This document shows, piece after piece, positions 6,504 through 49,884 of a DNA stretch of 64,000 nt. The notes beneath the pieces were generated by a model that worked only from the letters and a program-made list of their open reading frames with translations, made no database searches and was not told the DNA's origin. Both the position numbers and the translations under genes were made by a program. The DNA lies in contig NZ_PQIA01000009.1 in assembly GCF_003385235.1 (NCBI RefSeq), positions 1 to 64,000 of the forward strand. The letters run 5' to 3'. The stretch's first letter is position 1; the number at the start of each line of letters is the position of its first letter. Source of the stretch: Amycolatopsis circi (GTDB taxonomy: Bacteria; Actinomycetota; Actinomycetes; Mycobacteriales; Pseudonocardiaceae).

Positions 6504-6534
6504 GAAGTCCGTGAGGGGAACCCTCACGGACTTC
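6504..6534. repeat. Family A palindrome, short form
   Basis: GAAGTCCGTGAGGG is followed by loop GAA and the exact complement, a 14-bp perfect stem. It lies between the convergent TetR and SDR genes. It is the short version of a repeat seen seven times in this window, and it probably acts as a bidirectional terminator. Confidence 0.8.
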
Positions 6535-6566: not shown

Positions 6567-7376
6567 TTACGACCCCATCCCAGCCCGCTCGAACGCCAGC
6601 GTCGGCAGGTCGACCGCGTGCGCCCCACCATCAGCGACCAACACCGCACCGGTGATGTACGAAGACTCCGAAGACCCGAGGAACCGAACAATAGAAGCAA
6701 TTTCCTCCGGCTCGGCAGGACGCCGCAGCGGCACCTCAGCAGTCACCCGCCGATACCCCTCGTCATGCCCGCCGTCAAATCCGGCCGCCTCAGCGAACTG
6801 CTCCATTTCCCCATCCGCCATCGGAGTCCGAACCCACCCCGGGCACACCGCATTAGCCCGCACCCCGCGCGGGCCGTAATCCCGGGCAATAGACCGAGTC
6901 AACCCGATCAACGCGTGCTTGGCCACCGTGTACCCCGCGACATTGGGCCCAGCGAACAACCCGGCCAGCGAAGAAACAATAACGACCTGCCCGCCGCTCT
7001 TCACCAGCGAAGGCAATGCCGCACGGCAAAACACAAACGCACTGGACAAATTGGACCGAAGCGCGATCTCCCACTCCTCGTCCCCGGTGTCCACCACCGA
7101 AGACAGCCCATGCCCGCCGGCATTAGCCACGATCACGTCCAGCCGCCCGTACTTCTCGAGAATCTCCGCGATCGCCGCCTCCGCGTCCTCGCGAACGCTG
7201 GCGTCACAGGCGATCACGTGCGCGCCGGTCTCCGCCGCGACCTTCTCCAGCGGTTCCCGCCGCCGGCCCAGAACCACGACCTGCGCACCTTCTCCGGCGT
7301 ACCGCCGAGCAACCGCAGCCCCAATGCCCGTCCCTCCGCCGGTAATCGCCACGACCCGCGTGTCTGCCATCGTCAT
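6567..7376 (-). CDS. SDR family oxidoreductase
   Basis: A 269-residue classical SDR with cofactor motif TGGGTGIG near residue 12, NAG motif VANAGG, catalytic Ser in IVSSLAG and active-site YTVAK. The C-terminal ITGAVLVADGG is the usual end of 3-oxoacyl-ACP-reductase-like SDRs. It starts 10 bases after the preceding SDR gene ends, so the two form an operon. The pair is divergent from the amine oxidase cluster and may handle alcohol or carbonyl products of that pathway (inference from position only). Confidence 0.88.
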   Translation of the reverse strand: MTMADTRVVAITGGGTGIGAAVARRYAGEGAQVVVLGRRREPLEKVAAETGAHVIACDASVREDAEAAIAEILEKYGRLDVIVANAGGHGLSSVVDTGDEEWEIALRSNLSSAFVFCRAALPSLVKSGGQVVIVSSLAGLFAGPNVAGYTVAKHALIGLTRSIARDYGPRGVRANAVCPGWVRTPMADGEMEQFAEAAGFDGGHDEGYRRVTAEVPLRRPAEPEEIASIVRFLGSSESSYITGAVLVADGGAHAVDLPTLAFERAGMGS

Positions 7377-23719: not shown

Positions 23720-24907
23720 TCAGACGAGCACCTCGCCGTCCCGCACCACCACCCGGCCACCCGCGATCACCAACGCACGCACCGGCACTCGCATCAACGC
23801 ATCCGGCACATTCTCCGCCGCCACCAACACCACATCCGCCCGGCAACCTGGTGCCAGATCATGCCGCTCCCGAGCCACGAACGACGCCGCCCGACGCGTC
23901 GCCAGCTCAACCGCCGCCGTCAGATCCTCATCCGTCCGCAGGCCGTGCAACCGAGCGAAACCGAGCGCGATCTGCAGGACATCGCCATCGCCGTACGGGG
24001 ACCACAGGTCGCGGATCCCGTCAGTGCCGAGGCCGACCGGGACCTCGCGCGCGGACAGCTCGGTCCACGGCAGCGGGGCCGTCCGCACCGGCGCGACGGT
24101 TGCCAGCGAGATGCCCGCCTCGGTGATCCGGTCGAGCAATGCCGCCTGCCGCGCCGCGGGGACCTCGCCGAGGGCGAAGCCGTGCGACACGGTGACCTTG
24201 CCCTGCAGTCCAGTGCGCACCGTCCGGTCGGCGATCAGCTCGTACTGGAACGCACCCAGCTCGCCGCCGTCGTGCAGGTGGATGTCGAGGCCGACACCGC
24301 GCCGCTCGGCGATCTCGAACAGCCCGTCGAGCTGGCCGACCGGGTCGCGGTCGATGCCCGCCGGGTCGAGGCCGCCGATCCAGCCCGCGCCCGCCGCCGC
24401 GGCCTCGTCGAGCAGCTTGAGCACGCCGGGCCGGCGCAGCACGCCGTCCTGCGGGAAGGCCACGATCTCGACCTCGACCGCACCGCCCAGCCGTTCCGCG
24501 GCTTCCCGCACGATCTCGATGCCGCGCAGGCCGAGCCCGAGGTCGACGTCCACGTGGCTGCGCGCCGCGGTGGTGCCGTGCCGCAGGAACTCCCGCAGCA
24601 CTGTCTCGGCGACCTCGACGCTCGGGATCCCCAGCGCATCCCGCTCGGCCCGCTCGTGCGCGATGCGGCCTTCGGTGCTCGCGACACCGCCGTAGGAGAC
24701 CCACGGCTTGCCCCACCAGCTCTTGTCGACGTGCGCGTGCGAGTTGACGAACCCGGGCAGCGCGAGCAGACCCGCGCCGTCGATCCGTTCGCCCTCGACC
24801 GGGGCCGAACCGGCGGGCCGGACGTCGGAGATGCGGTCGCCGTCGAGGACGAGGTCGGCCGGGTCGCCGCCCCACGGGCGCACGCCGGTCACAGTGAGAG
24901 AAGCCAT
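23720..24907 (-). CDS. Cytosine deaminase-like amidohydrolase
   Basis: A 395-residue metal-dependent hydrolase with FVNSHAHVDK (HxH metal site), SHVDVD, HLHDGGE, SHGFALG and a C-terminal TDGIRDLWSPYG that carries the metal Asp. This set matches the cytosine deaminase/AtzC branch, which hydrolyses amino groups on rings. The ATG at 24907 is preferred; the longer in-frame extension upstream reads through the promoter and the opposite gene. A TGGTATACCA palindrome lies five bases upstream of the start. The natural substrate is not certain. Confidence 0.84.
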   Translation of the reverse strand: MASLTVTGVRPWGGDPADLVLDGDRISDVRPAGSAPVEGERIDGAGLLALPGFVNSHAHVDKSWWGKPWVSYGGVASTEGRIAHERAERDALGIPSVEVAETVLREFLRHGTTAARSHVDVDLGLGLRGIEIVREAAERLGGAVEVEIVAFPQDGVLRRPGVLKLLDEAAAAGAGWIGGLDPAGIDRDPVGQLDGLFEIAERRGVGLDIHLHDGGELGAFQYELIADRTVRTGLQGKVTVSHGFALGEVPAARQAALLDRITEAGISLATVAPVRTAPLPWTELSAREVPVGLGTDGIRDLWSPYGDGDVLQIALGFARLHGLRTDEDLTAAVELATRRAASFVARERHDLAPGCRADVVLVAAENVPDALMRVPVRALVIAGGRVVVRDGEVLV

Positions 24908-24912
24908 GTCAA

Positions 24913-24922
24913 TGGTATACCA
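24913..24922. promoter_or_regulatory. TGGTATACCA palindrome, possible GntR-type operator
   Basis: A perfect 10-bp palindrome lies directly upstream of the amidohydrolase ATG. It fits the TnGT...ACnA pattern of FadR-type GntR operators and includes a TATACC box at -10 spacing from the ATG, so binding would block the promoter. No GntR gene is in this window. Confidence 0.5.
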
Positions 24923-25057
24923 AATTATCCGGAACCTGTCCCGCGAGCCTGGCCCTGACACTCCCAGGACCGAGGGGTACTGGCCGCGCCGCGCCGCCGG
25001 CAGCACGATGGAGGACAGCCGCGACGGCACCGGCGCGGCGGAAAGAAGGGCGGAACA

Positions 25058-25927: not shown

Positions 25928-25939
25928 CGCCAGGCGAAG

Positions 25940-25994
25940 GTCCGTGAGGGGAACCCTGAGGGACTCAGAGTCCCTCAGGGTTCCCCTCACGGAC
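25940..25994. repeat. Family A palindrome, long form
   Basis: Two exact 27-base arms beginning GTCCGTGAGGGGAACCCT meet at a single A. It starts 13 bases after the aldo/keto reductase stop. Its right end borders the remains of a phosphatase gene. Confidence 0.85.
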
Positions 25995-25995
25995 A

Positions 25996-26309
25996 TCTGC
26001 CGCGCAGCCCGCCGACCGGGTCGCCCACGGCGGTTCCGGGCTGGCGATCGTGCTTGACATCGACAACACCTCGCTCGAAACCGAGTACCACCCCGGCGAG
26101 CCGAACCGGCCGGTGCTAGCGGTCGCCCAGTGGGCAGGCCAGCACCAGGTGTCCGTCCTGTTCGTGACGGCGCGGACCAGCTCCTCCTCCGCGCGCAAGC
26201 AGCTGAGCAGCGCGGGCTACCCGATCGACGCGATCTGCGCCCGCAAGTCCGGCGGGGGCACCGCGGACGGCAACCAGCGCTGCCGGACTACGACGGCCAG
26301 CTTTCCTGA
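25996..26309 (+). pseudogene. Remnant of HAD-type acid phosphatase
   Basis: The frame from about 25996 encodes LAIVLDIDNTSLETEY, the DxDxT motif I of class B/HAD acid phosphatases, then VLFVTART (motif II) and a KSGG stretch with a Lys. After ~26255 the frame loses similarity. At 26280-26309 another frame encodes LPDYDGQLS plus stop, which looks like the natural C-terminus. So the gene has lost its start, the segment with the motif III acidic residues, and its frame. It sits exactly between a family A and a family B palindrome. It should be inactive. Confidence 0.7.
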
Positions 26310-26310
26310 C

Positions 26311-26354
26311 TCGTGAGTGGCGATCACGGTTAGAACCGGGATCGCCACTCACGA
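26311..26354. repeat. Family B palindrome (CGTGAGTGG type)
   Basis: Arms TCGTGAGTGGCGATC and the exact complement surround an inner CGGTTAGAACCG palindrome. It lies between the phosphatase remnant and the convergent NmrA-like gene, whose TGA stop (26349-26351) is inside the right arm. Confidence 0.85.
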
Positions 26355-30386: not shown

Positions 30387-30441
30387 GTCCGTGAAGGGAC
30401 CCCTGAGGGAATCTGGTTCCCTCAGGGGTCCCCTCACGGAC
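30387..30441. repeat. Family A palindrome, long form, variant arms
   Basis: GTCCGTGAAGGGACCCCTG... pairs with ...CAGGGGTCCCCTCACGGAC, with one A-C mismatch. The inner arm differs from the copy at 25940 (ACCCCT for AACCCT) and the other arm changes to match. It lies between the convergent ECF and TetR genes, and the TetR stop (30434-30436) falls within it. Confidence 0.85.
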
Positions 30442-34865: not shown

Positions 34866-35600
34866 AGTTTGTATTCTCCTGTGGTGACAACGGATCGGGG
34901 TGGGGTGTCCGGGAAACGGACGAGCCGGCCCCAGAGCCGGCTCCTTTTCCGAAGATAGGACTCCGCCGAACGCCCGCCATCGGGGGGTCACCCGGGTTGG
35001 CCGGGGACCCCACTAGGGACTTTCTCGGACCCCCGATTAGGGGCATTAGGGGATTCGGCGCGTCTGCACTGGTCACAGCGCTGCCGCCGAGCCACCCCGC
35101 CGAGCGCCGCCCACCCCACCGATCGGGGGACGGACGCGGGACTCCGGAAGAGGTTCGCCAGGACCACCCATTGGTGTGACACCTACATGGCTTTTCGGGC
35201 GAGGCCGGGCTCAGGAGGAAGGCTGAAACGGCGGGGAGATCGGGTTCGTCCGGTTCCTCGGCGTTTCGGATACCGCCGGGAATCTGGACGCGGAATCCGC
35301 GTTTAATGATGTTCGGCGGAGTTGATCACGTTCCCATTAAGGAGATTCTGCGCGGAATCCGCCGACCAGCTGGCGAGACGGGCGTTCGGCAGCGAAACCG
35401 GCGCAGTCGCTGAGCCGGGTCTGGCCGCCGGACCGCATGGCTGTTTTCTCAGGTCCGTGAGGGGAACCCTGAGGGACTCTGATTCCCTCAGGGTTCCCCT
35501 CACGGACAGCAAAACCCCGCTGGCAGCAACTGCTCAACGCAACCAGCCCACCAGGCCGTAGCCGCTGCGGCACGATCCCGTCCCGCGGCGGCTCCCGCCC
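34866..35600. other. Large intergenic region upstream of the IniB-like gene
   Basis: A 735-base gap between two minus-strand genes. It should carry the IniB-like promoter and a long leader. Visible structure: a GATTAGGGGCATTAGGGGATT-type direct repeat (ATTAGGGG twice, 9-base period, ~35033-35051), a partly symmetric CACTAGGG segment near 35010, AT-richer sequence at 35280-35350, and one family A palindrome at 35453-35507. I see no protein gene with good coding character. Confidence 0.7.
35453..35507. repeat. Family A palindrome, long form
   Basis: The arms start GTCCGTGAGGGGAACCCTG and match apart from the centre (ACTCTGATT). It lies ~93 bases downstream of the ferredoxin oxidoreductase stop on the minus strand, in terminator position. 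Confidence 0.85.
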
Positions 35601-41245: not shown

Positions 41246-41260
41246 TGTCACCCGGTGACA
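41246..41260. promoter_or_regulatory. TGTCAC-CCG-GTGACA operator upstream of MftR-type gene
   Basis: A 6+3+6 inverted repeat 24 bases before the preferred ATG of the TetR gene. It overlaps an alternative GTG start (41255), which is therefore unlikely. Its position fits autoregulation. It resembles the palindrome at 5743 (GTCACTG), which may be chance. Confidence 0.6.
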
Positions 41261-41284
41261 GAAGCGTCTGCGGGAGGGGGAGGC

Positions 41285-41926
41285 ATGCCTGCTGATCCGG
41301 TCGGCGAGTCCGGCGAGGCTCGGCCCCGGCGGGGGCGTCCTCGGGGCACCAGCGCGCGGCAGTTAGAGGAGATCGCGCTGCGGCTGTTCACCGAGCAGGG
41401 CTTCCACGAGACCACGGTGGATCAGATCGCCGCTGCGGCTGGGGTTAGCCGGCGGACGTTCTTTCGGTACTACGACGCCAAGTCGGACGTGTTGTGGAAC
41501 GAGTTCGACTCTGAGGTGGATACGATCCGGGATCTGCTCGCGGATGCCCCGGACGATCTTCCCGTGCTCGAAGCGGTTCGGCGGGCGGTGTTGGCGGCCA
41601 ATCATTATCGGGCTGAGGATGTGCCTGAGTTGCGGATGCGGATGAATCTGCTCAGTACCGTGGCTGAGTTGGCGGCCAGTGCTACTCGGCATTATGACGC
41701 TTGGGAACGGGCCGTGATCAGTTTTGTGGCGCGGAGGACTGGGCAGGCCGAGGATTCGTTGTATCCGCTAGCTGTGGGGCGGGCTGTGTTGGCTACGTGC
41801 CGGGCGGCTTATGAGCGGTGGTCTGCTCGGGCTGATGCTGATTTGACTTTGTATTTGGATGCTGGGTTGCGGGCTTTGGCTGCCGGGTTTGCTGATGAGG
41901 TGCTTGTTGGGGAGCCTGGGGTTTGA
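41285..41926 (+). CDS. TetR-family regulator, MftR (mycofactocin regulator) type
   Basis: A 213-residue TetR protein. The HTH region (GRPRGTSARQLEEIALRLF, TVDQIAAAAGVSRRTFFRYY, KSDVLWNEFD) closely follows the MftR pattern, including DVLWxxFD after the recognition helix. MftR binds acyl-CoA and controls mycofactocin biosynthesis genes in mycobacteria. No mft genes are in the window, but an NDMA-type dehydrogenase gene is 2.4 kb away. The ATG follows GGGAGGGGGAGGC, a strong site. The 3' half uses many T- and G-ending codons, unlike most genes here. Confidence 0.8.
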   Translation: MPADPVGESGEARPRRGRPRGTSARQLEEIALRLFTEQGFHETTVDQIAAAAGVSRRTFFRYYDAKSDVLWNEFDSEVDTIRDLLADAPDDLPVLEAVRRAVLAANHYRAEDVPELRMRMNLLSTVAELAASATRHYDAWERAVISFVARRTGQAEDSLYPLAVGRAVLATCRAAYERWSARADADLTLYLDAGLRALAAGFADEVLVGEPGV

Positions 41927-42001
41927 GGTGCTGCTCGTCGCCTGGCGGCGACATTGCGCACGGTGGTTGCGTGGGGCACCCCGAAGCTTGATTGTGATGA
42001 C

Positions 42002-42056
42002 GGTCTGAGGGTGGTTGTCAAGGCGGGAAAGATGCCTTGACAACCACCCTCAGACC
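42002..42056. repeat. Family C palindrome, left copy
   Basis: Exact 23-bp arms starting GGTCTGAGGGTGGTTGTCAA with loop GGGAAAGAT-like centre (42025-42033). The loop is the reverse complement of that in the right copy, so the two are in opposite orientation. Confidence 0.88.
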
Positions 42057-42143
42057 GCATTTTGGCTTCGTATCGGGGTGCGGGGGTGGTGTGGGTGCCT
42101 CGACAGTTGGGTGCATCGGCTGCGGTTGGGCAGCGGGCGGGTG

Positions 42144-42198
42144 GTCCGTGAAGGGCTCCTTGAGGGAATTAGGTTCCCTCAAGGAGCCCTTCACGGAC
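42144..42198. repeat. Family A palindrome, CTCCTT arm variant
   Basis: Exact 25-bp arms (GTCCGTGAAGGGCTCCTTGA...), loop TTAGG. The middle of the arm (GCTCCTT) differs from other copies and the opposite arm changes with it (AAGGAGC). It is the left inner element of the composite palindrome. Confidence 0.88.
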
Positions 42199-42207
42199 TT
42201 TCGAAGG

Positions 42208-42260
42208 GTCGTGAGGGGAACCCTGAGGGACTCGGAGTCCCTCAGGGTTCCCCTCACGAC
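42208..42260. repeat. Family A palindrome, long form
   Basis: Exact 26-bp arms (GTCGTGAGGGGAACCCTGA...) with one unpaired G. It lies next to the previous copy with nine bases between; the axis of the composite palindrome runs between the two. Confidence 0.88.
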
Positions 42261-42340
42261 CACCGCCCAACAGCCACCGGCGCACCCAACGATCGAGGCA
42301 CCCAGACCCTGCCCTGCACCCCGATACGAAGCCTCCCTGC

Positions 42341-42395
42341 GGTCTGGGGTTGCTTGTCAAGGCATCTTTCCCGCCTTGACAAGCAACCCCAGACC
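42341..42395. repeat. Family C palindrome, right copy
   Basis: Exact 23-bp arms starting GGTCTGGGGTTGCTTGTCAA with loop ATCTTTCCC. Compared with the left copy, arm bases differ at several places but always in matched pairs. Confidence 0.88.
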
Positions 42396-42434
42396 GTCAG
42401 CACAATTGGCTTCGGGGTGCCCCACCGCACCAAG

Positions 42435-42459
42435 GTCCGTGAGGGGAACCCTCACGGAC
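42435..42459. repeat. Family A palindrome, short form
   Basis: GTCCGTGAGGG, loop GAA, CCCTCACGGAC. It begins at the edge of the composite palindrome and contains the TGA stop (42452-42454) of the vWA gene. Confidence 0.85.
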
Positions 42460-43207
42460 GGTCCAACAGCGTAGCTAGTGCGGCGGGGGCGGCCGCGGCT
42501 CCAGTGAGCGGGTGCCAGCGCGCACCTGATTCCCTGGCGAAGCGTTCCGCTTCCTCACAGTCTTCAGCCGGGGCCAAAATCAGCAGTTCCTCGCATGCGC
42601 GAGCGGCGGGCAGCGGATCCTGGTCGTCCGTAGCTCGGCAATCCGACAGCAGTAGAACCGTTTTTCGGGCCGCCCTTGACGAAGTCAGTTGCTCATTCGC
42701 CTTCCGCAGAGCCGCCGCCAATGCGGTAACTCCGTGTCCTCGCAGCGACAACACCGAATCCACCACCGCTGCCTTCGGCCGAGAAGACCGCATCGGGCGG
42801 ATTACCTCTGCGGTCCGGGCGAAGGACACCACCGCGTGTTCCACCGGGGCTCGCCACGAACACGCTGCCGCGGTAAGCGCCGCCGCGGCTAAGCGGGCTC
42901 CGGTCATTGAACCGCTAGTGTCAATTACCAAGCATAGGGCCAATTCTGGTCGTGCCCACCGTCGCGACACCAGGTCGTCCAGCGCTGGCACACCGCCTAC
43001 TGCAGCCGCGTCTACCAAGGCAGGCAGTGAGCGGTCTAGGTCTAGTTCGCCGCCTCGGTCGGCTCGGTCGCGGCGTAGTTTTCCTACGCCGCGGGCGCGC
43101 GCGACGCCGCGCCGGGCGACGTCGATCATCAGGCGACGGGCCAAGCCTCGGGCGGCTGCGCGCAGAGACTCGTCGGTGGCTTTGCTCATCTCGACCAGCA
43201 AGGCCAT
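42452..43207 (-). CDS. vWA-domain protein (MoxR partner), start unresolved
   Basis: At least 251 residues with a von Willebrand A domain: LCLVIDTSGSMTGARL is the metal-binding MIDAS motif (DxSxS), with later Thr in HGVTALAAAL and Asp in LLLSDCRATDD. The same frame stays open upstream to 43402 and reads like conserved N-terminal sequence (SRFAEISPEVGVLDEEAF), but has no ATG, GTG or TTG; only CTG (43306, 43258) occurs. So the true start may be CTG, or the protein may come from a -1 frameshift out of the MoxR gene; 43207 is the first standard start. MoxR-vWA pairs act as chaperones for metalloenzymes. The stop lies in a family A repeat. Confidence 0.8.
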   Translation of the reverse strand: MALLVEMSKATDESLRAAARGLARRLMIDVARRGVARARGVGKLRRDRADRGGELDLDRSLPALVDAAAVGGVPALDDLVSRRWARPELALCLVIDTSGSMTGARLAAAALTAAACSWRAPVEHAVVSFARTAEVIRPMRSSRPKAAVVDSVLSLRGHGVTALAAALRKANEQLTSSRAARKTVLLLSDCRATDDQDPLPAARACEELLILAPAEDCEEAERFARESGARWHPLTGAAAAPAALATLLDRP

Positions 43208-49830: not shown

Positions 49831-49884
49831 GGGCCTCGTGAGTGGCGATCCCGGTTCTAACCGGGATCGCCACTCACGAGGCCC
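49831..49884. repeat. Family B palindrome (CGTGAGTGG type), longest copy
   Basis: Exact 26-bp arms (GGGCCTCGTGAGTGGCGATC...) with a two-base CT loop. It lies downstream of the DUF218 gene and contains the TGA stop (49874-49876) of the convergent TetR-MarR gene. Confidence 0.88.

Follow-up and report, generated by a model that had tools for sequence, protein, structure and literature searches.

A near-palindrome in Amycolatopsis circi consists of two members of a dispersed hairpin family whose 5′ flanks carry a strand-specific composition gradient

How does a near-palindrome of about 470 bp, itself built from smaller palindromes, come to stand at the end of a bacterial gene? The structure lies between convergent genes for a TetR-type regulator (+) and a vWA/CoxE-like protein (−) in a 64,000-nucleotide stretch of Amycolatopsis circi DNA (the window), and a first-pass annotation had suggested that it may be a mobile palindrome, the product of an inverted duplication or a very strong bidirectional terminator. 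Here, we show that it comprises two independent members of one family, placed head to head around palindromes of a second family. The family is a dispersed hairpin with a covarying structure, and each copy in the clade anchors a strand-specific composition gradient that extends for about 1.3 kb on its 5′ side.

Two family members head to head

Self-alignment and folding bore out the annotated near-palindrome (41957-42439). Its arms pair at 183 positions in three blocks without gaps (41957-41987/42409-42439, 31 nt, 81%; 41991-42085/42312-42406, 95 nt, 87%; 42088-42144/42252-42308, 57 nt, 77%), so that the outer arms align over more than ~100 bases, and among inverted repeats with arms at most 500 nt apart, none found in the window is longer than the 95-nt block. 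Folded as DNA, the palindrome reaches −247 kcal/mol, versus −98 for shuffled sequences (z −27, 0 of 100 shuffles as good); folded as RNA, it has a z of −30 against shuffles. Four perfect hairpins are nested within it, two of 24 bp, one of 25 bp and one of 27 bp. The "family C" stems are thus 24 bp rather than the 23 bp first given, and their loops, GGGAAAGAT and ATCTTTCCC, are indeed mutually complementary. The left element begins at ~41933, beyond the span first annotated, and a third small palindrome, absent from that annotation, follows the mirrored region (Table 1).

Table 1 Features of the near-palindrome and its flanking genes in the window
Feature	Position	Strand	Remarks
TetR-type regulator gene, 5′ side of left element	41255-41926	+	ORF list; name from reading the sequence
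5′ module, GCTCG-(GTCGCC TGGC GGCGAC)-ATTGC	41933-41957	+	A few bases past the TetR stop codon
Left element core, 116 nt	41973-42088	+	Covariance model match 136.9 bits; CACCCCGA...TCGGGGTG bulged outer stem, variable covarying stem, conserved TTGTCAAGGCGGGAAAGATGCCTTGACAA apex
"Family C" hairpin, left copy	42001-42057	+	24-bp stem, loop GGGAAAGAT
G/T-rich 3′ tail of left element, GTGGGTGC..GTTGGGTGCATCGGCTGCGGTTGGG	42089-42143	+	Common to other copies
Perfect palindrome, family A kind	42144-42198		25-bp arms
A-type perfect palindrome near symmetry axis	42207-42261		27-bp arms
3′ tail of right (inverted) element	42262-42308	−	
Right element core, inverted	42309-42423	−	Covariance model match 127.6 bits
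"Family C" hairpin, right copy	42340-42396	−	24-bp stem
Short A-type palindrome, GTCCGTGAGGG GAA CCCTCACGGAC	42435-42459		Outer end of right element
vWA/CoxE-like gene converging on element	42452-43207	−	ORF list; name from reading the sequence

The two cores are 85.3% identical to each other. When 29 other copies were compared, the right core proved 99.1% identical to a copy on contig C251, which has a stretch similar to the 42435-42459 palindrome at the same place, and the left core 98.3% identical to one on C301. Each core is therefore closer to other copies than to its partner, which makes the right half an independent family member and an inverted duplication in place unlikely. The left half is present at the same site in other species, which speaks against a misassembly of that half. 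Among 30 TetR orthologues (30 of the 33 genomes with a match), five have the element by profile score, the window included, and four more retain a remnant. A second, inverted element accompanies it in the window alone; the eight relatives that keep an element or remnant at the site show no such partner. A. rubida, A. nivea and A. jejuensis, which hold the closest named relatives of the vWA-like gene, have the left copy alone, degraded in A. rubida and A. jejuensis; some of these sites probably belong to the same genomes as in the orthologue table. Among the orthologous sites compared, the left copy is thus shared between species and the right copy restricted to the window. The 27-bp A-type palindrome probably marks the junction of the two elements, and recombination at self-complementary repeats of this kind may have joined them. 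Inverted pairs also occur in a second genome, G028 (L138/L155, L149/L156, L150/L154 and L144/L145); three of these four are of divergent type and show little C depletion.

The A-type palindromes form a separate dispersed family, with ten half-sites in the window against 0.01 expected. Others lie at 6510-6529, 25933-26001, 30387-30441 and 35453-35507 (CGTGAGGGGAACCCTGAGGG and its complement), a third palindrome type (TCGTGAGTGGCGATC...AACCGGGATCGCCACTCACGA) occurs at or near gene ends at 26311-26354 and 49831-49884, and in the single-contig relative G026 a palindrome array (GCGCCCCAATGTGGCATTGGGTGC...) lies 3′ of many elements, for example at L111, L122 and L124.

A dispersed, covarying hairpin

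We defined the element core from an alignment of 58 copies and built a covariance model. The core, ~116 nt long, has a bulged outer stem, ACCCCGA/TCGGGGT, whose ends pair as terminal inverted repeats, a conserved unpaired stretch (TGATTGTGA), a nearly invariant apex (TTGTCAAGGCGGGAAAGATGCCTTGACAA) and an inner stem that varies in sequence while mostly keeping its pairing. Across copies, 95.8% of cells in the 34-pair structure pair, and 18 of the 34 named pairs have changed on both sides. The covariation score is 0.295, compared with 0.072 in shuffled alignments (0 of 500 reach it) and at most 0.070 in slid versions. Departures from the consensus pairs comprise 188 two-sided cells, 14 one-sided cells and ~78 unpaired cells, many of the last being A-C combinations, which on the opposite strand would be G-U. 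That so few changes are one-sided suggests that the structure is maintained in the DNA itself or on both strands. A hairpin in the 5′ module accompanies 66 of 79 copies in G026, where copies of this type also have GTGG just 5′ of the hairpin foot (GCGTGGGGCACCCC); sampled copies of G680, G657 and G460 have no GTGG at the foot. A known Rfam RNA family was rejected, since none of 50 hits passed the gathering cut-off and the best matches were to microRNA models (48.9 versus a cut-off of 137 bits). A scan of 41700-42700 for U-tract terminators gave one weak site, versus 0.9 expected by chance.

The A. circi genome has 141 covariance-model matches on both strands, which a hand count resolves into at least 87 distinct places, at least 76 of them above 95 bits; some copies lie at contig ends and may be counted twice. 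Many draft contigs (C38, C77, C96, C110, C173, C177, C247, C274 and others) end within ~150 nt of a copy, so the element seems to break assembly. G026 has at least 79 places above 100 bits, retained from 149 matches listed, the others being mostly opposite-strand duplicates together with two weak partial places. All copy numbers are lower bounds, since 150 candidates were scored for A. circi, G026 and G028 and 9-13 per genome elsewhere. Within the genus, 28 of the 35 other genomes match by DNA similarity; in the rest of the order, outside this family, the figure is 0 of 24. The covariance model (E 1e-4) finds matches in 17 of the 46 genera sampled from the family and in 83 of its 297 genomes, in many of which there are one or two weak copies. 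In a draw of 396 genomes from the phylum under stricter filters, which may include few members of the family, A. circi was the sole match. Judged by eye, stem sequences are alike within a genome and different between genomes, which suggests lineage-specific amplification. Loci L050-L057 share a similar element subtype in several low-copy Amycolatopsis genomes; L051 and L052 adjoin sequence that by eye resembles a tRNA 3′ end, perhaps an attachment site of an integrative element, and ARAGORN found a whole tRNA in 0 of 25 loci scanned.

The proposal of a mobile palindrome therefore holds in part: the family is dispersed and looks to have been amplified lineage by lineage, but its unit is one half of the palindrome rather than the whole, and no transposase, target duplication or mobilisation event was seen. 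A Y1 transposase (PF01797) is present in 0 of 36 Amycolatopsis genomes, A. circi included, while the same search was positive in 5 of 14 controls, and mobilisation by a RAYT or IS200 enzyme was rejected on this basis. Spread driven by a reverse transcriptase was likewise rejected, as RVT_1 counts do not correlate with copy number across 35 genomes: G017, with 12 copies scored, has none, and element-poor G013 has nine. Target duplications were looked for by eye at one element-less sister site (L226), whose flanks were too diverged for a junction to be placed.

A composition gradient on one strand

On the 5′ side of the elements, the top strand has lost C and silent A and gained T and G. Towards the element, the top strand of the 79 G026 loci becomes steadily poorer in C (0.319 at −1500, 0.215 at −200) and richer in T (0.169 to 0.235) and G (0.368 to 0.407). 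C is lower near the element than far upstream at 78 of 79 loci (p 1.6e-14). On the 3′ side, composition is near background ~300 nt past the core, with a weaker effect on the same strand. Synonymous sites show the change most clearly. Where element and fork are co-oriented, the final 150 nt of the upstream gene show fourfold-site frequencies of A 0.015, C 0.08, G 0.58 and T 0.33, versus C 0.27 and T 0.16 at 1200-1350 nt from the element. With a home-made gene caller, a co-directional upstream ORF was found at 60 of 79 loci (at least 120 codons) or 62 of 79 (at least 100 codons); median fourfold C is 0.10 in the 62 element-adjacent genes versus 0.43 in 468 control genes (p 4e-34). Near the element, codon shares rise to 0.57 for Leu TTG (0.09 in controls), 0.69 for Asp GAT (0.13) and 0.91 for Glu GAG (0.63), A at twofold purine sites drops from 0.27 to 0.08, and Gly and Arg codons shift to GGG and CGG rather than GGT and CGT, that is, from C to G. 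Since the first two codon positions are little altered, the pressure must have acted over a long time, with selection filtering its effects.

The same trail marks the locus in the window. In the last 300 nt of the TetR gene, fourfold C is 0.10 and T 0.39. The vWA/CoxE-like gene, which lies 3′ of the left element, has fourfold A of 0.16 in its last 150 nt, 0.23 at 150-300 nt and 0.27 at 300-600 nt from its end, versus 0.03 in an element-less sister. This raised A is as expected for C-to-T change on the top strand of the left element, and the same-strand effect here also reaches beyond 300 nt. Two other genes in the window, at 6567-7277 and 23720-25030 (both −), show raised third-position T and lowered C near their 3′ ends with no element seen adjoining; an A-type palindrome follows the first.

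Gene ends, or ends closed by a palindrome, do not share this composition as a general property, as 40 control regions of G026 show. We surveyed these for palindromes of any kind with arms of at least 11 within 100 nt of a stop codon. Where the intergenic gap is at least 40 nt, they occur at 31 of 91 convergent and 21 of 154 tandem gene ends, and at closely spaced ends at 1 of 59 and 1 of 161, a placement expected of terminators. The 21 tandem and 31 convergent genes that end at such palindromes show no element-like gradient (fourfold C 0.43, T 0.06-0.07). Composition of the element type is found at 52 of 62 element-adjacent gene ends, against 4 of 468 control ends. Insertion bias is common among mobile elements, and a preference for DNA that was already G/T-rich could in principle yield the association; the rarity of such DNA at control ends and the normal composition of orthologues that have no element make this reading very unlikely. 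Fourfold C in TetR is 0.05-0.16 in 9 of 9 orthologues with an element or remnant and 0.26-0.81 in 21 of 21 without, the closest element-less orthologue (L226) having C 0.58 and T 0.00. The pyrD gene, which points away from its element and was found in 80 of 80 genomes, was compared in the best 30 of the 80. Its coding-strand A is 0.05-0.15 in 8 of 8 genomes with an element in the usual orientation and 0.00-0.04 in 21 of 21 without, and in L339, where a partial element is flipped, T is 0.12 and A 0.00. Each of these two contrasts is largely one clade against the rest, so that independent replication comes from the many loci.

The gradient follows the strand of the element and not transcription. 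At 17 of the 79 G026 loci no co-directional ORF lies directly upstream, and from 15 of these we chose by eye ten genes that point away from the element, leaving out two further candidates, L130 and L183. Within ~450 nt of the element, base frequencies on the coding strand of the ten genes are A 0.16-0.17, C 0.60-0.67 and G 0.14-0.20, which makes the top strand C-poor once more (0.14-0.20, versus 0.43 at 1350 nt). Glu GAA reaches 0.74 in eight of the ten (46 Glu codons), versus 0.37 at control gene ends and 0.09 in genes pointing at the element. Two readings based on transcription can be weighed against these genes. In one, the element is a strong terminator that stalls RNA polymerase and leaves the non-template strand of the preceding gene exposed in R-loops. 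A co-directional ORF does precede 62 of 79 elements, the core starts 40-59 nt past the stop codon in 46 of 60 measured, and the length scale is similar. Genes that point away, pyrD among them, nevertheless change on their template strand, which contradicts R-loops at terminators, and genes ending at other palindromes show no effect; we regard this reading as improbable. In the other, the element is an ordinary bidirectional hairpin terminator and the composition a side effect of selection on mRNA or codons. The convergent gene pair would suit it, and hairpin clusters have been proposed to act as intrinsic terminators (PMC8355165). U-tract terminators are not above chance here, however, and because away-pointing genes shift their codons in the opposite sense, selection on mRNA cannot explain both; there is very little chance that this account is right. 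The bidirectional terminator of the first-pass annotation thus agrees with the convergent position, but not with elements 5′ of away-pointing genes or with the strand-specific gradient.

Orientation relative to replication has a further influence in G026. With fork direction set from dnaA at 5.754 Mb, 65 of 79 elements are fork-co-oriented, compared with 386 of 671 genes (p 3.6e-6); elsewhere the figures are 11 of 15 in G012, among the places listed, and 10 of 22 in G028. Counter-oriented G026 copies affect the same strand less strongly, with a mean fourfold C of 0.19 (n=10) versus 0.11 (n=52; p 0.04), still below controls (p 1.3e-6). Copies with the 5′ module are more C-depleted than those without (0.220 versus 0.259, p 0.004), but several copies without it are also depleted, and the module was therefore set aside as the cause.

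The gradient is also limited by lineage. It is clear in G012 (7 copies), in A. circi (15 loci) and at single copies of G028 (14), weaker in G028 once 8 paired copies are included, and mild in G017 (7). Copies sampled from G680 (7), G657 (7), G460 (7) and G004 (6) have a weak gradient or none. Nor was there one at the seven single copies, drawn from seven genomes, that were looked at first. As several element-bearing genomes have little or no gradient, the core alone is not sufficient. The A. circi loci number 15 with full flanks, or 27 with at least 300 nt upstream, and insertion age made no significant difference between copies shared with G026 (21) and not shared (6). At 21 sites shared by G000 and G026, divergence over all sites is 0.085 near the element versus 0.064 far from it, and at codon positions 1 and 2 it is 0.040 versus 0.027. 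Fourfold divergence at these 21 sites is not raised near the element (0.19 versus 0.23), so either an equilibrium has been reached or the process has slowed.

A putative source of the gradient and its meaning

We propose that the top strand of the element, when single-stranded, may fold into the long bulged hairpin, and that this hairpin, or a factor recognising it on the top strand, would block or interrupt copying of that strand. Polymerases read their template 3′ to 5′, so a block would leave a single-stranded gap on the 5′ side of the element, perhaps up to about one Okazaki fragment in length. The block would act in both directions of replication, though more frequently with the top strand as lagging-strand template. 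In the gap, exposed C and A may deaminate, or filling may be error-prone, or both, giving C-to-T, C-to-G and A-to-G changes on the top strand. Such mutation would be repeated each generation, and since purifying selection would preserve the proteins, a graded C-poor, G/T-rich trail would remain at synonymous sites.

A recurrent gap, a block at the hairpin and mutagenic filling are what we infer from the composition data, and the model gives the right strand, side and length scale and, in G026, the orientation dependence. Deamination with translesion filling could be the source of the mutation spectrum. In mycobacteria, DinB1 favours A>G or T>C, and C>T and C>G are among the changes linked to DnaE2 (PMC9346131, in which the strand is not resolved). 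Several observations fit the model less well. A perfect stem should fold on both strands, while one alone is affected; the same-strand effect on the 3′ side, the change beside counter-oriented copies and the lack of co-orientation in G028 also count against a hairpin block, and the shift to GGG and CGG is not what simple deamination would produce. Overall, we judge the chances evenly balanced that a pair of dispersed hairpins and mutagenically filled 5′ gaps caused by such hairpins together account for the locus. The broader claim, that the element is a cis-acting, strand-specific local mutator beside which ~1.3 kb of one strand is recurrently single-stranded wherever it is active, is more tentative.

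The main rival to a hairpin block is a strand-specific nickase. Here, the core would be a recognition site of HUH or relaxase type, at which a protein nicks or displaces the bottom strand; resection leftwards would then expose the top strand. Such an enzyme would explain a strand polarity that holds regardless of the direction of replication or transcription, as well as a conserved loop and apex on a freely covarying stem, and its presence or absence would give the lineage restriction. Searches for the Y1 and RVT_1 families yielded no candidate enzyme, with Y1 missing from all 36 Amycolatopsis genomes and reverse transcriptase not tracking copy number, and we consider a nickase unlikely.

Returning to the element itself, its parts resemble several known systems. 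Like REP, BIME and REPIN sequences, it is a dispersed intergenic hairpin with many copies per genome, here in an inverted pair as in a BIME, and IS200/IS605 relatives act on the lagging-strand template (PMC6006769). Its 116-nt core exceeds the 21-65 nt of a REP; where a REP would have its GT[AG]G foot, GTGG stands in copies of this clade but not in the copies sampled from other genomes; and the Y1 transposase (TnpA-REP, RAYT) that goes with REPs and BIMEs is missing from the 36 genomes. We know of no kilobase mutation trail at REPs. Strand specificity, a fork bias in one genome and hairpin ends recall non-autonomous derivatives of IS200/IS605 (PATE- or MITE-like); against this comparison, a Y1 transposase was found in none of the 36 genomes, and neither a target duplication nor an empty-site junction was seen at the one site inspected. 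The target sites of diversity-generating retroelements (DGRs), with a hairpin or cruciform after the variable repeat, share a hairpin near a stop codon, a free stem, a conserved loop and change on the 5′ side (PMC3240598). In DGRs, though, adenines are randomised in a short repeat, whereas here it is mainly C, along with A, that is lost synonymously over ~1.3 kb, and G017 has 12 copies scored and no RVT_1 match. Finally, C-to-T and A-to-G change on one strand with an excess of G and T resembles replicative strand skew, the leading-strand G/T excess that arises through deamination (PMC2031905), but the change beside the element is local, spans ~1.3 kb mainly on one side and is anchored at a short element.

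A literature search, in which subscription journals were thinly covered, found no description of the element or the gradient. The near-palindrome is assembled from components of a familiar kind, dispersed hairpin repeats, and one of these components has an unusual and well-supported property; the palindrome would be more than a variant of known repeats if its reading as a mutator in cis is verified. If the gap model is true, dozens of natural replicates per chromosome would report the position, strand and length of recurrent single-stranded DNA, which are otherwise hard to measure in vivo, and the trail would be a fossil record of such sites in a bacterial chromosome. Beside these elements, composition-based gene callers and horizontal-transfer scores can fail. 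Each copy would drive directional mutation of the neighbouring genes, a short repeat thereby imposing a strong local bias that lowers silent C about fourfold, and this would explain the abrupt shifts in codon usage at many gene ends in these antibiotic producers.
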